Of a DNA stretch of 49,960 bases, positions 39,666 to 47,189 are shown in pieces (position 1 is the first letter of the stretch; each line of letters opens with the position of its first letter). The translations under genes and the position numbers were made by a program. The notes under the pieces were generated by a model. It was not told where the DNA came from and did not search any database. It saw only the letters and a list, made by a program, of their open reading frames with translations. This DNA comes from Xanthomonas arboricola (lineage in GTDB: Bacteria > Pseudomonadota > Gammaproteobacteria > Xanthomonadales > Xanthomonadaceae): contig NZ_QREM01000009.1 in the NCBI RefSeq assembly GCF_003353015.1, forward strand, positions 853,119-903,078. The letters are read 5' to 3'.

Positions 39666-39696
39666 TTGACCTCAACCTTGGTTGAGGCAGGATGCT
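39666..39696 (+). promoter_or_regulatory. Long-spacer promoter of the MFS exporter with SoxR box
   Basis: TTGACC (39666-39671) and GATGCT (39691-39696) are spaced by 19 bp, the overlong spacing typical of MerR-type promoters. The SoxR box 39670-39687 has perfect 8-bp arms CCTCAACC/GGTTGAGG and shares the CCTCAA...TTGAGG outline of E. coli soxS. The -10 is weak by itself. Confidence 0.75.
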
Positions 39697-39762
39697 GCGC
39701 GGCCACGACTGCTGCAAGTACCGGCGTCGTGGCTTTACACACACTGCCGTCCTGGATGTCCG

Positions 39763-41133
39763 ATGCCTACCGATACCGCCCTGCCCGCCGCCTCGTCTGG
39801 CGATACCCGCCCCCCCTCCATCCTGGCCGCTCCGTATCGCGCAGCAACGCTGGGCATGGTGGCACTGGTGTCGCTCAACGCCTTCGAATCGCTGGCGGTG
39901 GCCGCCGCCATGCCCACCGTTGCGCGCGCATTGGACGGCTTGCCGCTGTACGCGCTGGCATTTGGCGGCACCCTGGCGACCAGCGTGGTCGGCATGACGG
40001 CCGCCGGGCGCTGGAGCGACCGGCGCGGCCCGGGCGGCGCGCTGGGTTACGGCCTGCTGTGCTTCGTGATCGGCCTGCTGGTGGCAGGGCTGGCACCGAG
40101 CATGCCCGTGCTGATTGCCGGGCGCCTGCTGCAGGGCCTGGGCGCCGGCGCGTATTCGGTGGCGCTGTACGTGATCGTCGGGCGCCTGTATCCGGACGCC
40201 CTGCGGCCGCGCGTGTTTGCCGCGTTTTCGGCCGGCTGGGTGGTGCCCTCGTTGATCGGCCCAGGGATCAGTGGGTTGATCGTGCAGCACATCGGCTGGC
40301 GCTGGGTGTTCCTGTCGGTGCCGTTGCTGGCGATCCCGGCCGGACTGATGCTGTGGCCGGCCATTCGCGGGCGCGCATGGTCCAGCGACACAGACGGCGC
40401 GTCGAATTCCGCACTGCGCTGGGCGATCGGTGCGGCCCTGGGTGTGCTCGGCGTGTATCTGGGCGGGCAGCTGCACGGCACTAGCGCGTTGCTGGCGATG
40501 CTGCCGGCACTGGCGCTCACCGTGTGCTGCGCCTGGCAGCTGCTGCCGACCGGCACGCTGCGGCTTGCGCGTGGCCTGCCCAGCGTGATCGCGCTGCGCG
40601 GCATTGCGGCGGCCGCCTTCTTCGGGTTCGAGGCATTCCTGCCGTTGCTGCTGTCGCGCGAACGTGGCCTGTCGCCACTGCTGGCCGGCGTGGCGCTGAG
40701 CGTCGGCGCGCTGGGCTGGTTCAGTGGTTCCTGGTACCAGGGCCACAGCCGCGCCGGCTGGTCGCGCCCACGCCTGCTCAAGACCGGTGCGTGCTTCATG
40801 TCGCTGGGCATCGTGATCAGCGCCGGTGCGGTGTGGCCGGTCATCCCGGTGCCGGTGGCGATTGCCGGCTGGGCGCTGACCGGCCTGGGCATGGGCCTGC
40901 TGTATCCGAGCCTGTCGGTATTGACGCTGTCGCTGTCGCCACCGGCGCAACAAGGCAGCAACAGTTCGGCGCTGCAGCTGAGCGAGGCGATTGCGGTGGC
41001 CGGCATGCTGGCGCTGGCCGGCGCCTTGTTCGCCGCACTGCTGGCCTCCGCGACTGCGGCCGCGTACCTGAGCGTGTTTGCGCTGGCGTGGCTGCTCGCC
41101 GTGGCGGGCTTTTTCGTGGCGCGGCGGGTGTGA
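39763..41133 (+). CDS. Major facilitator superfamily exporter under SoxR control
   Basis: The 456-residue protein has about 14 hydrophobic segments and MFS motifs, including [15 protein letters not shown] between helices 2 and 3 and the motif near [13 protein letters not shown]. This type resembles drug:H+ antiporters. The ATG at 39763 fits the family. Its promoter carries the SoxR box, so it may export redox-cycling toxins such as phenazine- or quinone-like compounds; the substrate is not known. Confidence 0.9.
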
Positions 41134-41243: not shown

Positions 41244-41297
41244 CCTGCACGGCTTGCACGGCTTGCACGGCTTGCACGGCTTGCACGGCTTGCACGA
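41244..41297 (+). repeat. 9-bp tandem repeat CTTGCACGG
   Basis: Five head-to-tail units start at 41253, 41262, 41271, 41280 and 41289; the last ends in A instead of G, and a shortened unit precedes at 41245. The near-perfect identity marks a variable-number tandem repeat candidate. Confidence 0.95.
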
Positions 41298-41737: not shown

Positions 41738-42904
41738 TCAATCCACGATCACGTGCGGCACGAAGCGCGAGGTGTCGCGGGTGATCGGGCCATCGTCGTC
41801 GCGCATGCCCAGCCCGGCCGGACGATCGGCCACCACCCAGCTGCCGACCAGGGCGTGCCGGCCATCGAACACCGGCAACGGATGGTGCGCCTGCAGGATC
41901 GCCGGCCCGTCCACATACGGGCCGTCGGTGTGCGCCGCCTCGCCCTGCGCGGTGACCACGGAAATATTGGCGCCCTCGCGCGACAGCAGCGGCTTGCGCA
42001 CCCAGCCTGCCGTGGGCGCTTCGCCGGCTTGCGCAAAGCGCGCCGGCAGCAGATTGGGATGGCCCTGATGCCGCTCCCACAGCAGCGGCAGGATGCCCTT
42101 GTTGCTCAGCACCGATTTCCATGCCGGCTCGATCAGACGCACACGGTTGGCAATCAATGCCGGGCCGAAGCGTTCTTCCATCATGAATTCCAGCGGGTAG
42201 AGCTTGAACAGCGTGTGGATCACCCGGTCCTGCTCATCGGTGAACCAGCCATCGGCGCTCAGGCCGATGTCCTCGATGGCCACTTCCTCGGTGCTGATGC
42301 CCACCTGGTGCGCGCAGTCGCGCAGGTAGCGCACCGTGGCGCGGTCTTCCAGCGAGTCGCGCACCGCGGAAAAATGCATCTGCGCACCGAGCGCGCCATC
42401 GGCCGCCAACGCGCCCAGGGTCTCGCACAGCAGGTCCTGGATCAGGTTGTACTGATCGGTGCCCTTGGGCAGCGCACCGGCGGCGATCTGCTGTTCCAGC
42501 CACAGCCACTGGAAATACGCCGATTCGTACAGCGAGGTCGGCGTGTCGTAATTGAGCTCGTACAGCTTGGCCGGGCCGTTGCCGGCGTAGGCCAGGTCCA
42601 TGCGGCCGTAAAGGTGCGGGTCGCGGTCCTTCCACGAGGTGGCGATCCAGTCCCAGTAGAACGGCGGAATCGCCAGCTGCGTCATCAGCTGTTCCGAGCC
42701 CACCACCTCGTCCACCAGCTGCATCGCCATGTCGTGCAGTTCCTGCGTGGGCGCTTCGATGTCGTCCTCGATCTGCTGCAGCGTAAACGCGTAGTACGCG
42801 CTTTCGTCCCAGTACCGCTCGCCGTCGATGGTGTGGAAATGGAAGCCGAGCGATTCGGCCTGCTCGCGCCAGTCCGGGCGCTCGGCGATTGCGATCCGTT
42901 GCAT
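41738..42904 (-). CDS. yjfC: Glutathionylspermidine-synthase-like ATP-grasp protein (YgiC/YjfC)
   Basis: The 388-residue protein matches the ATP-grasp synthetase domain of glutathionylspermidine synthase and E. coli YgiC/YjfC, without the amidase domain. Family features include YELNYDTPTSLYE, FKLYPLEFMMEERF and the ATP-binding WVRKPLLSREGANISV. These enzymes form amide bonds between a carboxylate and an amine, but the substrate of YjfC-type members is not established. The start at 42904 is 1 bp beyond the stop of the DUF1190 lipoprotein gene, so the two are tightly coupled. Confidence 0.92.
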   Translation of the reverse strand: MQRIAIAERPDWREQAESLGFHFHTIDGERYWDESAYYAFTLQQIEDDIEAPTQELHDMAMQLVDEVVGSEQLMTQLAIPPFYWDWIATSWKDRDPHLYGRMDLAYAGNGPAKLYELNYDTPTSLYESAYFQWLWLEQQIAAGALPKGTDQYNLIQDLLCETLGALAADGALGAQMHFSAVRDSLEDRATVRYLRDCAHQVGISTEEVAIEDIGLSADGWFTDEQDRVIHTLFKLYPLEFMMEERFGPALIANRVRLIEPAWKSVLSNKGILPLLWERHQGHPNLLPARFAQAGEAPTAGWVRKPLLSREGANISVVTAQGEAAHTDGPYVDGPAILQAHHPLPVFDGRHALVGSWVVADRPAGLGMRDDDGPITRDTSRFVPHVIVD

Positions 42905-42905
42905 G

Positions 42906-43481
42906 TCAGCCGCCGTATCCGGAGCTGCGTCCGCCGCTGCCGAACGAACTGCGCGCCGCCGCACTGGAGCCGAAACCCGAGCGCGACACGGTGATCGCCC
43001 GCGACGGCATGTCGATCGCGCCACTGCGCCCGCGCACGGTGCCGACGCGGTTGCTGGCCAGATCGCCATTGGGCTTGTAGTACCCGCCGCTGCGGTAATC
43101 GCGGTACAGCGGAATCGAGCCGCCATAGCGGTAACCGCCACCGCCGGTCATGTTGCCCAACGCATAGCCCAGCAGGAACCCGCCCATCGGCGGAATCCAG
43201 CTCTGCTGGCCCTGCGCCGTCTGCACCGCCGTACAGCTGCCGAACTGCTCGTCGCACTCGTAGCGCGTGTTGAAGCGCGGCGCGGCCTGCTGGTGCTTGG
43301 TCACCGCCTCGTCGTAGGCCTTGAGGCACTGCTGGATGTCGCTCTGTTCCTGCTTGATCTGGTAGCAGTCCGAAGCCGACTGCAGCACCACGCCGGTCTC
43401 CGGCTCGGACCCGCAGCCGGTGACGAGGGCGGCCGGCAATGCGGCCATCAGGGTGAGCTTGAGATTGCGTGATCGCTTCAT
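42906..43481 (-). CDS. DUF1190 (YgiB/YjfM-type) lipoprotein with Gly/Ser-rich tail
   Basis: The 191-residue protein has a lipoprotein signal ending LVTG-Cys23, a conserved DUF1190 core (ASDCYQIKQEQSDIQQCLKAYDEAV and RFNTRYECDEQFGSC with several cysteines) and a flexible C-terminal half rich in Gly, Ser, Arg and Tyr that ends GSGGRSSGYGG. The order lipoprotein then ATP-grasp is the same as ygiB-ygiC and yjfM-yjfC in E. coli. The function is unknown; the tail is a candidate substrate for the enzyme downstream. Confidence 0.87.
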   Translation of the reverse strand: MKRSRNLKLTLMAALPAALVTGCGSEPETGVVLQSASDCYQIKQEQSDIQQCLKAYDEAVTKHQQAAPRFNTRYECDEQFGSCTAVQTAQGQQSWIPPMGGFLLGYALGNMTGGGGYRYGGSIPLYRDYRSGGYYKPNGDLASNRVGTVRGRSGAIDMPSRAITVSRSGFGSSAAARSSFGSGGRSSGYGG

Positions 43482-43493
43482 GCCTGCGCTCCG

Positions 43494-43898
43494 TTACGGC
43501 GTGATCGCCGCGGCATTGATCAGCCCGACCGCGATCGACACGCCGGCCGAGAAGATGCCGGCGGCGGTGACGTTGTCGGTGATCTGCCGCGAGATGCGCC
43601 CGGCCACCAGGTTGGCCAGCAGGTACGCCACGATCTGGATGCCGCAGGCGACCGCGCCCCAGATCAGCGCATCGACCAGGCTCACCGAATGGGTGATGGC
43701 CGAATGCAGCGGCAATGCCACACCGATCAGGTTGCCGGCCAGGGCGGTGGCCGCCGCCACGTTGCCCTGCCGCAGCAGGGTGAAATCCTTGTGCGGGGTG
43801 ACCAGGGTCACCAGCACCACCGCCACGATCAACACGCCCAGGCCGGTGCCGAAGTAGGAAAGAAACGCGAGAAAGCTCTGCAGGTTGATCGGGTTCAT
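43494..43898 (-). CDS. yjfL: DUF350 membrane protein (YjfL-type)
   Basis: The 134-residue protein has four predicted transmembrane helices with short loops and a conserved ALIWGAVACGIQIVAYLLANLVAGR segment, typical of DUF350. The ATG at 43898 gives MNPINLQSFLAFLSYFGTG; the frame runs further upstream to 44000 but would add a polar, non-conserved extension. It lies 12 bp before the lipoprotein gene. DUF350 has no known activity. Confidence 0.88.
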   Translation of the reverse strand: MNPINLQSFLAFLSYFGTGLGVLIVAVVLVTLVTPHKDFTLLRQGNVAAATALAGNLIGVALPLHSAITHSVSLVDALIWGAVACGIQIVAYLLANLVAGRISRQITDNVTAAGIFSAGVSIAVGLINAAAITP

Positions 43899-43935
43899 GA
43901 CAGGACCAGGGTAAGTGGAGGACGAGCGCGCACGC

Positions 43936-44607
43936 TCAGGTGATATCCAGATCGGCAACGGTGACATCGATGCCGACTGCATAGGTGACGCAGAATTCAT
44001 TGGGGCCGGAATCCTCGCCGGTGACCAACAGGAATTCCTCGCGCTGCAGCTCCGGCACGTCGCGGCTGTAGAGCATGGCGTAGTGGGTCAGATCGCCATC
44101 GCGGCGCGGCGGCTGATAGCGGTACAGCACCTCGTCGTAGGCGATCGGCGGAATCCGCGCAGCATCGTCGGTGGACTGCGTGGCGCGTTGCCAGCGCTTG
44201 CCGGCGTAGTCGATCTGCGCCGCACCCAGATGCGGATGCTGCATCACGAACTCCTGAAACGCCTGCTTGCTGGGCGGGTTGACCGTCTCGCAATACACGA
44301 ACGCCTTCATCGCCTCCAGATCGCCACCCACGGTGGTGACCTGCAGGAACGCGTCATCGTCCAGGTAGAACCGATGCAGGGCATAGCCATCACCCAGATT
44401 GACGTGGCCGTAGCACGGAATACCTTGATGCCCGCCCGGCAACTCGGCGGTCATGGCCTCCGGTGCCATGCGGTACAACGTGGTGTCGATCTCCACCTGG
44501 CCACCCACACGCAGCCCCAGCGGCAGCGTGTGGCCGATGGCGCCGGTGCCGGTACCGGGCAACGGCGGCGGTTGTGGTTGACCGAACAACTTGCTGAAAA
44601 AACTCAT
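43936..44607 (-). CDS. yjfK: DUF2491 cytoplasmic protein (YjfK-type)
   Basis: The 223-residue protein starts with a short amphipathic-looking MSFFSKLFGQPQPPPLPG and continues with a soluble beta-rich DUF2491 domain (GHTLPLGLRVGGQVEIDTTLYRM, GYALHRFYLDDDAFLQV). It ends in an acidic segment. Its start overlaps the K+ channel stop by 4 bp. The N terminus resembles that of the PspA-like protein in the same operon. The function is unknown. Confidence 0.88.
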   Translation of the reverse strand: MSFFSKLFGQPQPPPLPGTGTGAIGHTLPLGLRVGGQVEIDTTLYRMAPEAMTAELPGGHQGIPCYGHVNLGDGYALHRFYLDDDAFLQVTTVGGDLEAMKAFVYCETVNPPSKQAFQEFVMQHPHLGAAQIDYAGKRWQRATQSTDDAARIPPIAYDEVLYRYQPPRRDGDLTHYAMLYSRDVPELQREEFLLVTGEDSGPNEFCVTYAVGIDVTVADLDIT

Positions 44608-45692
44608 CGTCCTGCACCTTGTGGCGATGGGGAATGGGGAACGGCCGCAGTGCGCAGCGCCTGCCATGCGATGGCCTGCACGGGCACGCGCTGCTCGGCC
44701 AGGTAATACAGCATCGCACCGGCCGGGACAGCGGTGTGTGCTGGCGGGTTCAAGCGCAGCGCACCATCGGGCGCGCGCAGGCCCAGCAGCAGGGCGCCGC
44801 GCTGGCTGAAATCGGTGGCCACGACGCCGTAATCCAGCATTGGCACATCGGCCGGAACCAGCAGGCCGAACTGGGTCGGGCCATCGTCCACCGACAGCAG
44901 CTCGGCGGTGATCGCCGCGCTGCCGGGATCCTGCGCGGCACGGGCCAGGATCTCGGCGGTCATCGGCCGCGTGCATTCGATCGCCGGATAGTGGCAATTG
45001 ACCAGCCGCGCGGCGCTACCCGAATCGAAGTGCGCCACGATGTGCGCACGCGGCGCATGCGCCATCAACGCAAACACCGCCGCCAGGGTCTGGTCGTCGG
45101 ACGGCGGGTTGACGATCACCCGCGCCGCGCCCGCGATGCCGGCACGCAGGTACACCTCGGTGTGCGTGTACGACTCGGCGGCGATGAAGCGCATGTGGTC
45201 GGGCATGGGGTTTTCGGCCACGCCCTCGGCGATCAGCACCACGCCTTCGTCGTCGGTGGCGGTGTCCGACAGCAGCAGCTCCAGCAAGCGCGTGGAGGCG
45301 GCGCCCTGCCAGCCGATCAGGATGGTGTGCCCGTACAGATCGGCGTAAGCCATCTTGCCCATGTAGTGGCGCCTCCAGAAGGTGATCAGCACGCCACTGG
45401 TCTTGGCCAGCACGGTGGCGAACAGCGCCACTGCACCGGGCATCAACACGAACGCGGCGATGTAACGGCCAGCCACCGAGCCAGGCGACAGGTCGCCATA
45501 GCCGATGGTGGTGGCGGTGGTCATGTAGTAATACGGAAACGCGTCCGGGCCAACGAGCGTGTGCTCGCCGGCCAGCAACAACAACGCCCAGCTCACGCCC
45601 ATATGCGCCAGCAGGGCCAGCGCCACCATGCCCCAGCTGACGCGGCGCACGTGGCGCCGCACCACCCGCAACAGCTTTCCGACGATGATCAT
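44604..45692 (-). CDS. Two-helix potassium channel with RCK-like domain
   Basis: The 362-residue protein has two transmembrane helices (about 20-41 and 74-98) flanking a pore loop with selectivity filter TTIGYGD (61-67), so it is a K+-selective channel of the Kch/MthK type. A cytoplasmic RCK/TrkA-N-like Rossmann domain follows from about residue 115 (GHTILIGWQGAAS), with a C-terminal region up to 362. The nucleotide loop reads GWQGAAS, unlike the usual GxGxxG. The gene is inserted between the PspA-like and DUF2491 genes and overlaps the latter by 4 bp. Confidence 0.93.
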   Translation of the reverse strand: MIIVGKLLRVVRRHVRRVSWGMVALALLAHMGVSWALLLLAGEHTLVGPDAFPYYYMTTATTIGYGDLSPGSVAGRYIAAFVLMPGAVALFATVLAKTSGVLITFWRRHYMGKMAYADLYGHTILIGWQGAASTRLLELLLSDTATDDEGVVLIAEGVAENPMPDHMRFIAAESYTHTEVYLRAGIAGAARVIVNPPSDDQTLAAVFALMAHAPRAHIVAHFDSGSAARLVNCHYPAIECTRPMTAEILARAAQDPGSAAITAELLSVDDGPTQFGLLVPADVPMLDYGVVATDFSQRGALLLGLRAPDGALRLNPPAHTAVPAGAMLYYLAEQRVPVQAIAWQALRTAAVPHSPSPQGAGR

Positions 45693-45717
45693 GGCGCGTC
45701 CTGTGCCGTGTGGCCGG

Positions 45718-46488
45718 TCAGCTGTCGCTGCGTGGAACCTGCTGCACGTCGCGCACCTGGCCGATCAGCGGCGCGCTGCCGCCGGCGCTGTCGTGGCCGA
45801 GCTGGGCCGGCTTCTTGAAGCGCGCCAGCACCGCGGCGGCGTTGGACTCGCCCTCCATCAGGCCGGCCGCGGCCAGGCGCCGGTTCAGATCGCCGTCGCC
45901 ACTGGATGCTTCCAGCTCTTCGGCCGATTCGATGCGTGCGGAGGTCTCGGCCTGACGCGCCTTGATCCGCTCCAGCGATTCCAGCGCCGAGCCCATCTTG
46001 CTGCTGGCACCGGAATGGCGCGCGGCAATCGCCGCCTGCGCCTTCTGCACCGCATCGGTGGCCTTGACCGTGTCGATCTGCTGGCGCATGCCGCGCAGCT
46101 GGTTCTCGGTCTTCTGGATGGTGGCCTTGAGCGTCACCACCGACTGGTCCAGCGACGTCTTGGAGGCCTTGTCGCCGGCGTCCTCGCTTTCCAGCGCAGC
46201 CAGTTTGGTCGCCACGTCGTGGGCCAGCGATTCGTCGCCCTTGGCCAGCGCACCTTCGATATAGCGCGTGTATTCGGCCATCTTGCCGGCGCGCGCATCG
46301 ATCTTCTGCTGGGCCAGCTTGCTCTGCGCCATCAGCTTGGTCAGCTCTTCGCGCGAGCGCGTGAGCTGGGCGCCGGCATCGCGCATTTCCTGGTCCAGGA
46401 TGCGCAGCGCGTTGGCGTCGACCGCCTTCTGGCCGGTTTCGTGTGCAGTGCCACGCAGCAGCGTGATCAGCTTTGAAAAGATACTCAT
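45718..46488 (-). CDS. yjfJ: PspA/IM30-family protein (YjfJ-type)
   Basis: The 256-residue protein is almost wholly helical and coiled-coil forming (about 25-190), as in phage-shock protein A. The N terminus MSIFSKLITLLRG is the amphipathic helix that PspA proteins use to bind stressed membranes. The C-terminal 40 residues are less ordered. No pspB, pspC or pspF accompanies it, so regulation differs from the classical Psp system. It is the second gene of the operon, 12 bp after the DUF2170 gene. Confidence 0.93.
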   Translation of the reverse strand: MSIFSKLITLLRGTAHETGQKAVDANALRILDQEMRDAGAQLTRSREELTKLMAQSKLAQQKIDARAGKMAEYTRYIEGALAKGDESLAHDVATKLAALESEDAGDKASKTSLDQSVVTLKATIQKTENQLRGMRQQIDTVKATDAVQKAQAAIAARHSGASSKMGSALESLERIKARQAETSARIESAEELEASSGDGDLNRRLAAAGLMEGESNAAAVLARFKKPAQLGHDSAGGSAPLIGQVRDVQQVPRSDS

Positions 46489-46500
46489 GACGACACGCCT

Positions 46501-46917
46501 TTAGGAAAAGAACGGCTTGAGAGATTCGGCGGCATCCAGCGTATTGGCCGCCAGGGTCTGGATTTCCTCGTCGATCTGGTCCAGCGTGGACGACGCCGAC
46601 AGTTCGCCGAAGACCACGTAGCTGTCCTTGCCATCGACCTGCACCAGGCCCAGGTTGGACAAGGGATTGAGCGGGTTGAGCCGCAGGCAGGCGTCGTTGA
46701 ACGCCGCGCGGTCGCTGACCTGGTCGGCGTTGGCCAGCAATGTGGAAACGAACACCTGCGAGCCGGAGGCGGCGACCTGGATCTGCATGTCGCCATGGTC
46801 GGCCAGGGTGAGGTTGATGGCCGGTTCCAGCCCATCGATCAGCTCGACCTCGATCGGCTGGTCGCGGTAGCGCTCGGCCAGCAGGCCGTGCAGTTCGACA
46901 GTGGTGTACTGCGTCAT
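46501..46917 (-). CDS. yjfI: DUF2170 protein (YjfI-type)
   Basis: This 138-residue acidic cytoplasmic protein is the first gene of the operon. Conserved-looking stretches are INLTLADHGDMQIQVAASGSQVFVSTLL and NPLSNLGLVQVDGKDSYVVFGELSA. No catalytic motif or membrane segment is visible. Its position before a PspA-like gene is the same as yjfI-yjfJ in E. coli. Confidence 0.87.
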   Translation of the reverse strand: MTQYTTVELHGLLAERYRDQPIEVELIDGLEPAINLTLADHGDMQIQVAASGSQVFVSTLLANADQVSDRAAFNDACLRLNPLNPLSNLGLVQVDGKDSYVVFGELSASSTLDQIDEEIQTLAANTLDAAESLKPFFS

Positions 46918-47189
46918 ACGATGTCCTGTCCTTTGGTCATGCAGCGGTGATCAAGCGGCTGCGGGGATGCAGCGATAGCCAAGCAATGGGCGGACATACT
47001 ACAGACTGTCCGCGACCGGCAGAAAGGGCCGGACGTCGGCCGGTCAGGCCAGCTGCAGGTGCAAGCAGACCACCGGTTCAGTCGGCGCGAAGCCGCACGC
47101 CGCATGCGCCGCCTGGGCGCCGTTGTGGTCCAGCCGCGCATCGGAGGTCGGCTCCGTGCAACCCCGATCCCGCCACCCGGCCGGCGTGC
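46918..47189. other. Promoter region of the yjf operon and pdxH 3' flank
   Basis: This 272-bp region contains an inverted repeat CGGACA-N10-TGTCCG at 46991-47012, 74-95 bp upstream of the yjfI start. No gene is seen. No convincing -24/-12 (sigma-54) promoter was found by eye. Confidence 0.5.
46991..47012 (-). promoter_or_regulatory. Operator-like inverted repeat upstream of yjfI
   Basis: Perfect 6-bp arms CGGACA and TGTCCG are separated by 10 bp and lie 74-95 bp upstream of the first gene of the operon. The regulator is unknown. Confidence 0.4.

Follow-up and report, generated by a model that had tools for sequence, protein, structure and literature searches.

The seven minus-strand genes at the centre of this study lie in a stretch of 49,960 nucleotides from Xanthomonas arboricola (contig NZ_QREM01000009.1, positions 853,119 to 903,078; the whole stretch is referred to as the window). 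They encode a DUF2170 protein, a PspA-like protein, a potassium channel, a DUF2491 protein, a DUF350 membrane protein, a DUF1190 lipoprotein and an ATP-grasp ligase of the YjfC/YgiC family. Probably, the ligase would join a polyamine to the terminal carboxylate of the C-terminal tail of the DUF1190 protein before its export, and the operon would thus build a polyamine-capped envelope lipoprotein. A wider proposal, for and against which the arguments appear evenly balanced, is that of a widespread polyamination pathway. Ligases of the YjfC/YgiC type would read a portable RxGFG...[G/S]-COOH tail on a dedicated membrane-anchored protein, which would be exported with a polyamine covalently attached to its end; the unit of selection would be the tail, and not the DUF1190 body.

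The ligase scores 498.9 bits against the GSP_synth model of Pfam (cut-off, 29.3) and is matched over nearly its full length. Its closest relatives among solved protein chains are YgiC (7uk8) and YjfC (7uk6), with 430 and 424 bits, versus 104 bits for the bifunctional enzyme Gss (2io7; encoded in E. coli K-12 by gss); the NCBIfam model of Gss is not reached (129 bits against a cut-off of 882). The GSP_synth domain is common to both enzymes, and residues R101, D103, E116, N118, K269, K304 and R368 of the window ligase align to R316, D318, E330, N332, K498, K533 and R598 of Gss, which we take to be the ATP, Mg and acyl-phosphate residues. The two differ in that the amidase domain of Gss is missing from the window ligase and that Ser335-Ala-Ser337 of Gss is replaced by Thr-Pro-Thr at positions 121 to 123, T121 being kept in 89, P122 in 90 and T123 in 88 of 90 ligases. 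Gss attaches spermidine to glutathione at the glycine end of the latter, and its Ser337 is described as helping the attack by the N1 amine (PMC6272389). In RefSeq, YjfC and YgiC of E. coli K-12 are named peptide--spermidine ligases. Going by the title of Pederick et al. 2023, the E. coli homologues reportedly possess peptide-spermidine ligase activity. By its sequence, the window ligase is likewise predicted to couple the C-terminus of a peptide to spermidine through an amide bond. It shows no export signal, and homologues of S-adenosylmethionine (AdoMet) decarboxylase (AdoMetDC) and spermidine synthase (SpeE) are encoded in the same genome. Two ligase copies are present in another genome (G291): L061, located beside a tail protein, has lost the equivalents of E116, N118, K269 and K304, while L122, on another contig and with no tail neighbour, has kept all four.

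The DUF1190 protein terminates in ...SRSGFGSSAAARSSFGSGGRSSGYGG, that is, in the pattern R-S-G-F-G ... G-G-COOH. A putative lipobox, AALVTG-C23, can be read by eye in its translation and marks it as a bacterial lipoprotein. An alignment of 59 DUF1190 proteins has as invariant columns four cysteines (C39, C52, C76 and C83), one proline, and the tail residues R167, G169, F170 and G171, which together with the Pfam score (Table 1) places the protein in the family. The tail is of variable length among homologues, and among the best 120 of 143 of them, the closest named ones (P0002 to P0005) being from Xanthomonas, the C-terminus is GG in 98, GS in 20 and different in two. According to AlphaFold2, the body is ordered, with ten-residue means of 79 to 96 from residue 31 to 160 (except for 66 at residues 111 to 120), and the tail, with block means of 47 to 61 from residue 161 onwards, is predicted to be disordered. 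The same design recurs in 81 distinct tails from a broader collection of ligase loci (set A, described below). Their last residue is G in 51, S in 25, T in four and E in one; 51 of them (63%) terminate in GG, a dipeptide that accounts for 3.7% of those in the linkers, where S (32%), G (16%), A (12%) and R (11%) prevail. The linker values are off by a very small amount, as YjfM was included among the 81 with its last 30 residues instead of the stretch starting at the motif. The distance from motif to end ranges from 12 to 31 residues. Both tail proteins of E. coli, YjfM and YgiB, finish in RGG[YF]G...GG. A conserved glycine C-terminus next to a relative of Gss, an enzyme that uses the glycine end of glutathione, suggests the tail as acid substrate; we infer that the DUF1190 tail is the natural acid.

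Linkage of tail and ligase was followed in two samples. Set A comprises 96 stretches, the window and two E. coli K-12 loci, i.e., 99 sequences, of which 90 contain a ligase. The stretches are all DUF1190 places outside the window found by scans of a phylum and a class, further GSP_synth places above 400 bits and further DUF2491 places; two fragmentary GSP_synth places (G110:C2 and G236) were left out. In the phylum sample of 299 genomes, DUF1190 was found in 40, GSP_synth in 61 and DUF2491 in 20; in the class to which genome G187 belongs, DUF1190 was found in 35 of 240 genomes. By the strict rule, an adjacent tail is a same-strand open reading frame (ORF) not more than 100 bp from the ligase gene, in which [RH]xGF[GTK] is followed by 4 to 45 residues to the stop. 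Such a tail is found at 66 of the 90 ligase loci. In eight more, the locus contains it at another place (five have the DUF1190 gene on the opposite strand; in L061, L116 and L112 it lies at 110 bp, 240 bp and 2.3 kb, respectively), and 15 have a variant such as SGGFG, FGGFG, RGGYG, RGGLG and similar; L122 is the only one of the 90 with a ligase and no tail protein in its locus. Set B, from a scan of named genomes with the ligase alignment, contains the best 80 of at least 591 places, two of which (L146 and L172) overlap set A. Here, the strict adjacent tail is present in 69 loci, a tail elsewhere in nine and an adjacent tail by a relaxed rule in one; the single miss, in Pseudomonas donghuensis (L182), has a very short tail, RGGFAS. 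In set A (89 loci, ligases above 300 bits), the motif occurs in 65 of 281 adjacent ORFs versus 25 of 8611 remaining ones; in set B, reduced to 78 loci by removal of the two overlaps, the figures are 65 of 205 and 17 of 4436. The non-adjacent ORFs include tail proteins sited elsewhere in the locus. A DUF1190 gene on the strand opposite to the ligase gene is found in nine loci of set B, mostly of Sphingomonas and Brevundimonas, in addition to the five of set A, and the linkage thus outlasts splitting into two units. The window's own family adds 16 further DUF1190 loci, at least three of which may coincide with set-B records; 15 contain the ligase in the same 3.4-kb stretch, and in one the contig stops before the tail. 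In these 15, the motif is RGGFG, RSGFG or RQGFG in 14 and TRGFG in one (L236), and the last residue is G or S in 14 and E in one.

Two records of set B deserve separate mention. At L189 (NVRQ02000169.1, a metagenome-assembled genome), which was counted as adjacent, the tail appears to be frame-shifted and reads to an LA end. L155 (JAHREJ010000011.1) is labelled Bacillus subtilis strain SK7B5, yet its ligase is 62% identical to that of the window and ranks among Stenotrophomonas loci; the record is probably mislabelled or derived from a contaminated assembly.

The tail accompanies the ligase also where the body of the neighbouring protein differs. The ligase neighbours in L111 to L121 are small ORFs in which a hydrophobic segment at the N-terminus and a body that is short or of low complexity precede the tail or one of its variants. 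Of eight tail proteins lacking DUF1190 or borderline for it, six have no Pfam match up to an E-value of 1 and two have a match below the cut-off. L105, one of the six, and the Pseudomonas-type L107 to L109 match an iterated DUF1190 profile, which itself includes the tail, and remote kinship of their bodies is possible. In the other direction, the motif is absent from all six DUF1190-like ORFs that are not paired with a ligase of their own (L040, L070, L103, L104 and two in L039). The locus L039 (genome G012) contains a complete lipoprotein-ligase pair and, about 1 kb further on, the two short DUF1190-like ORFs without tail. Unlike the window ligase, the bifunctional Gss enzymes have no adjacent same-strand tail ORF at any of 10 loci, and none was found at the K-12 gss locus. 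A looser rule retrieves three ORFs in two of the Gss loci, all distant chance matches with another ending or strand.

Several points weigh against a ligase that caps this tail with spermidine before export. The N-terminal signal or anchor of the tail protein puts its C-terminus outside the cytosol, while the ATP for the ligase is inside, and modification prior to export is assumed. A plain specificity for glycine would not cover the 29 of 81 tails that finish in Ser or Thr, and tails ending in Glu are seen in two loci (L119 and L235). As to linkage, the 15 variant tails of set A were counted only by eye, set B consists by design of the nearest relatives of the query alignment, and the Fisher values for the motif contrast, 8e-80 in set A and 1e-76 in set B, count related loci as independent. 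The group of bodies without ligase is small, comprising six ORFs of which several are weak profile matches, and in L071, a tail-bearing DUF1190 protein that stands in neither count, the contig ends 172 bases on, before a ligase could appear. In the genome of the window itself, 16 sites encode RGGFG or RSGFG (with a CGN arginine codon), compared with 18 and 13 for reversed control patterns; five of them pass the strict rule for the tail (L245, L251, L253, L254 and L256), three with G or A as last residue. Since the motif is no commoner than its controls, it is weak evidence by itself, and it is the place beside the ligase that carries the argument; L254, the DUF1190 gene of the window, is the only one of the five so placed. 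None of the other four stands out as a second substrate, although one may exist among them: L245 (C12:908012) ends in G but its sequence resembles that of a non-coding frame, L253, with A at its end, resembles an enzyme, L251 (genome G000, C20:636693) is a glycine-rich frame finishing ...ASGSW with W as last residue, and the last residue of L256 is R. Finally, of the acidic residues in the spermidine site of Gss, 84 of 90 ligases have retained the equivalent of E392 and only 26 that of E391. From this pattern, the amine is likely to be a polyamine, and it may not be spermidine.

The partial conservation of the Gss spermidine pocket leads to the first alternative, in which the tail would be joined to another amine (a different polyamine, an aminolipid or a peptidoglycan amine), so that the modification would be a covalent anchor and not a cationic cap. 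Unusual amines are made plausible by genes resembling AdoMet decarboxylase and aminopropyltransferases in related operons described by Ravi et al. (PMC11237479). This alternative is nevertheless rather unlikely, considering the RefSeq names of both E. coli enzymes, the presence in nearly all ligases of Thr, which likewise has a hydroxyl group, at the position of Ser337, by which Gss holds the attacking N1 amine, and the location of lipid and peptidoglycan amines outside the compartment in which the ligase presumably works.

In a second alternative, RxGFG would be a docking or regulatory motif recruiting the ligase to the membrane protein, and the true acid substrate would be another peptide or a metabolite. 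RGGFG is in fact more constant than the terminal residue, its third position being G in 100% and its fourth F in 96% of the counted set-A tails, and the tail protein at L061 is paired with a ligase copy without catalytic residues, as a binding-only partner might be. A docking function would, however, leave unexplained why the last two residues are constrained (the final one being G, S or T in 80 of 81 tails) across so variable a spacing from the motif; such a constraint would not be expected of a pure docking motif. In addition, the genome of L061 possesses L122 as second copy with the catalytic residues kept, and docking alone is regarded as unlikely.

A third alternative places the emphasis elsewhere in the operon, and its evaluation depends on how the genes are combined in other genomes. 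For these counts, PspA and channel matches below 30 bits were excluded, and the flanks in set B extended over only 5 kb. Among the 88 set-A loci with a ligase above 300 bits, DUF1190 is found in 75, DUF350 in 64 and the channel in 14; among the 80 loci of set B, DUF350 is found in 40 and the channel in 17. DUF2170, PspA and DUF2491 behave as an all-or-none unit, occurring together in 17 of 88 and 31 of 80 loci, respectively, and never singly in set A. Each locus with this trio also has DUF350 and DUF1190, and in set A the channel is always accompanied by the trio. Since the trio comes and goes as a whole and most ligase loci do without it, the core of the system looks like ligase plus tail protein, usually with DUF350, to which the PspA unit would be an add-on. 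DUF2491 is seen without a ligase in view in L123, L124, L125 and L126, with DUF350 adjoining in L125 only, and thus has some existence apart from the operon. The operon as a whole might instead be a machine for membrane repair like the phage shock protein (Psp) system, with PspA and the channel doing the work and the ligase pair as auxiliary. The joint travel of the trio with the ligase and the upregulation of yjfIJKL in heat-evolved E. coli strains (PMC12492005) would be in line with such a function. This appears doubtful, given that 71 of the 88 ligase loci of set A and 49 of the 80 of set B, samples that were drawn around ligase and DUF1190 matches, lack the trio. Very improbable is a fourth alternative, based on the homology to Gss with its ATP and Mg residues kept, by which the ligase would make a small-molecule polyamine conjugate and the lipoprotein would have an envelope function of its own, with no more than the operon in common with the ligase: the tail accompanies the ligase even where the rest of the protein is unrecognisable, it is not adjacent to the glutathione-using Gss, and YgiC has no glutathionylspermidine (Gsp) synthetase activity according to a comparison cited in a table of PMC12506659.

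Polyamination of the tail would proceed as follows. The ligase would bind the disordered DUF1190 tail via the RxGFG motif and phosphorylate the carboxylate of the terminal Gly (or Ser) with ATP. An amine of a polyamine, most likely of spermidine, would then attack the acyl phosphate to give an amide, in analogy to the reaction of Gss at the glycine end of glutathione. Because the ligase needs ATP and shows no export signal, this step would occur before or during Sec export. The lipoprotein would subsequently be lipidated and, once in the envelope, would present a terminus with strong positive charge. DUF350 would be the usual membrane partner of the ligase-tail pair, the DUF2170-PspA-DUF2491 unit would be added to it, with the channel present only together with this unit, and PspA and the chaperone-like protein would probably place the system at the stressed inner membrane. 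In this scheme, we infer the order of modification, the identity of the amine and the role of the product in the envelope and in physiology.

The features of the locus are compiled in Table 1. All seven genes lie where an earlier prediction, made from the letters of the window only (the original prediction), had placed them, and its gene identities, the gene order and the tight arrangement are confirmed by coordinates and Pfam; the terminal hairpin is present as well. In transcription order, the intergenic distances are 12, 25, -4 (overlap), 37, 12 and 1 bp, and all seven proteins pass the curated cut-offs of Pfam. The predicted match of six genes to yjfI-J-K-L-M-C of E. coli was found in K-12 in the same order, with the channel gene missing there, and the claim that the genes are kept together beyond close relatives withstood examination in sets A and B. 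The assignment of DUF2170 to the CesT/Tir fold is taken from PMC11237479; the window protein reaches 101.5 bits against the BacA equivalog of NCBIfam (cut-off, 300), and its relation to BacA is one of superfamily kinship only. Similarly, the PspA/IM30 protein belongs to that superfamily by Pfam and differs from classical PspA of pspABC, the NCBIfam equivalog giving 28.4 bits versus 242.95. The channel aligns to MthK in a phmmer search over residues 7 to 329 (E-value, 4.4e-12) and combines a pore, in which the filter TIGYGD was read from the translation, with an RCK part, as is typical of MthK-like K+ channels. The mean predicted local distance difference test score (pLDDT) of the DUF2491 protein in AlphaFold2 is 89.5. 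A scan of PADLOC-DB for anti-phage defence gave only weak matches (best E-value 7e-4, 17 bits) and no assignment to such a system.

Table 1. Features of the seven-gene operon and its borders (positions in the window)
Feature	Position	Strand	Evidence
DUF2170 / CesT-Tir-like chaperone fold protein (YjfI/BacA relative), 138 aa	46501..46917	-	Pfam PF09938, 149.9 bits
PspA/IM30 family coiled-coil protein (YjfJ type), 256 aa	45718..46488	-	Pfam PF04012, 138.1 bits
K+ channel, MthK-like cytosolic part, filter TIGYGD, 362 aa	44604..45692	-	Pfam PF07885 (Ion_trans_2), 39.5 bits
DUF2491 (YjfK), beta-rich protein, 223 aa	43936..44607	-	Pfam PF10679, 219.9 bits
DUF350 membrane protein (YjfL), 134 aa	43494..43898	-	Pfam PF03994, 125.5 bits
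DUF1190 lipoprotein (YjfM/YgiB family), 191 aa; proposed substrate	42906..43481	-	Pfam PF06693, 108.2 bits
Codon of putative lipobox cysteine C23	43413..43415	-	Translation; column at least 90% conserved in 59 sequences
Tail motif R167-S-G-F-G171	42969..42983	-	R167, G169, F170 and G171 invariant in 59 DUF1190 proteins
C-terminal Gly-Gly, residues 190-191; proposed acceptor carboxylate	42909..42914	-	GG in listed homologues and set-A tails
GSP_synth ATP-grasp ligase (YjfC/YgiC family), 388 aa, without amidase domain	41738..42904	-	Pfam PF03738, 498.9 bits, residues 12-386
Hairpin 3' of last stop codon	41698..41723	-	Perfect 10-bp stem, 6-nt loop
Inverted repeat GCGGACA-N10-TGTCCGC, perfect	46990..47013	+	Upstream intergenic region, about 73 bp from first gene

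At the upstream border, a pyridoxamine-phosphate oxidase gene (47789-47190) lies on the same strand and leaves 272 bp for a promoter. The inverted repeat in this region is a possible operator on the basis of its position alone, with one match found versus 0.79 expected by chance (up to two mismatches). At the downstream border, the 62-nt stretch containing the hairpin folds with -32.9 kcal/mol (z, -2.1), and six of 200 shuffled sequences fold equally well; the hairpin has no T-run, and a terminator scan returned no site on the minus strand. A convergent MFS transporter gene follows on the plus strand (39682-41133), and in the gap before it a 9-bp repeat, TGCACGGCT, is present in 5.7 perfect copies (41246-41296).

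The operon and the class of reaction have both been described before. By gene content and linkage, the operon belongs to the third group of CesT/Tir-PspA operons of Ravi et al. 2024 (PMC11237479), with which it has all seven components in common, the potassium channel and a GspS-like ATP-grasp enzyme included. For this group, monitoring of polyamines or of aminopropylation was suggested, while the passages of that paper available for comparison do not mention a C-terminal tail and leave the substrate of the ligase unnamed. In P. aeruginosa, the co-transcribed bac cluster is headed by BacA, a relative of the window DUF2170 protein with a fold like that of type III secretion system chaperones (Wallart et al. 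2024, PMC10948618). According to its description, on which the comparison is based, the structure of BacA, operon mapping by reverse-transcription PCR and biofilm phenotypes have been reported, and a possible Psp system was considered. The original prediction had regarded the locus as lacking established biochemistry, which omits the work on bac and that of Ravi et al., and its statement that the reaction is unknown is out of date in view of the RefSeq names of YjfC and YgiC. Its more general idea, modification of a molecule at the envelope, gains support and can be made specific, with the C-terminus of the neighbouring DUF1190 lipoprotein as the likely substrate; sensing of membrane damage by the operon, which it also proposed, may be a further function. 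In E. coli K-12, the tail-bearing YjfM occurs within yjfIJKLMC, and a second tail protein, YgiB, is encoded with YgiC as a bare lipoprotein-ligase pair, ygiBC, after tolC. A chemical parallel exists in the conjugates of SUMO and ubiquitin with spermidine, in which the amide, with a mass shift of +127.15 Da, is on the C-terminal Gly-Gly carboxylate (PMC12270671); these are, however, products of eukaryotic E1/E2 chemistry and of an enzyme unrelated to the window ligase. In the open-access literature, no statement naming the DUF1190 tail as substrate of the ligase was found, with no search aimed at the letters of the tail. The tails of YgiB and YjfM may already have been used by Pederick et al. 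2023, and priority is uncertain. What appears to be added to the open-access literature is the generality of the association: whatever the body, the tail accompanies the ligase, and the few bodies that have no ligase lack it.

Annotation tools still predict GSP_synth enzymes of the YgiC and YjfC type as glutathionylspermidine synthases. A tail with a constrained C-terminus, common to nearly all sampled neighbours of these ligases, points to a natural substrate, and a vague envelope operon becomes a direct question for mass spectrometry in E. coli K-12. If the wider proposal is true, the tail would predict substrates also in genomes without a recognisable homologue of the lipoprotein. Bacteria would then attach polyamines covalently to envelope proteins via a ribosomally encoded tail, a post-translational modification that has seldom been sought.

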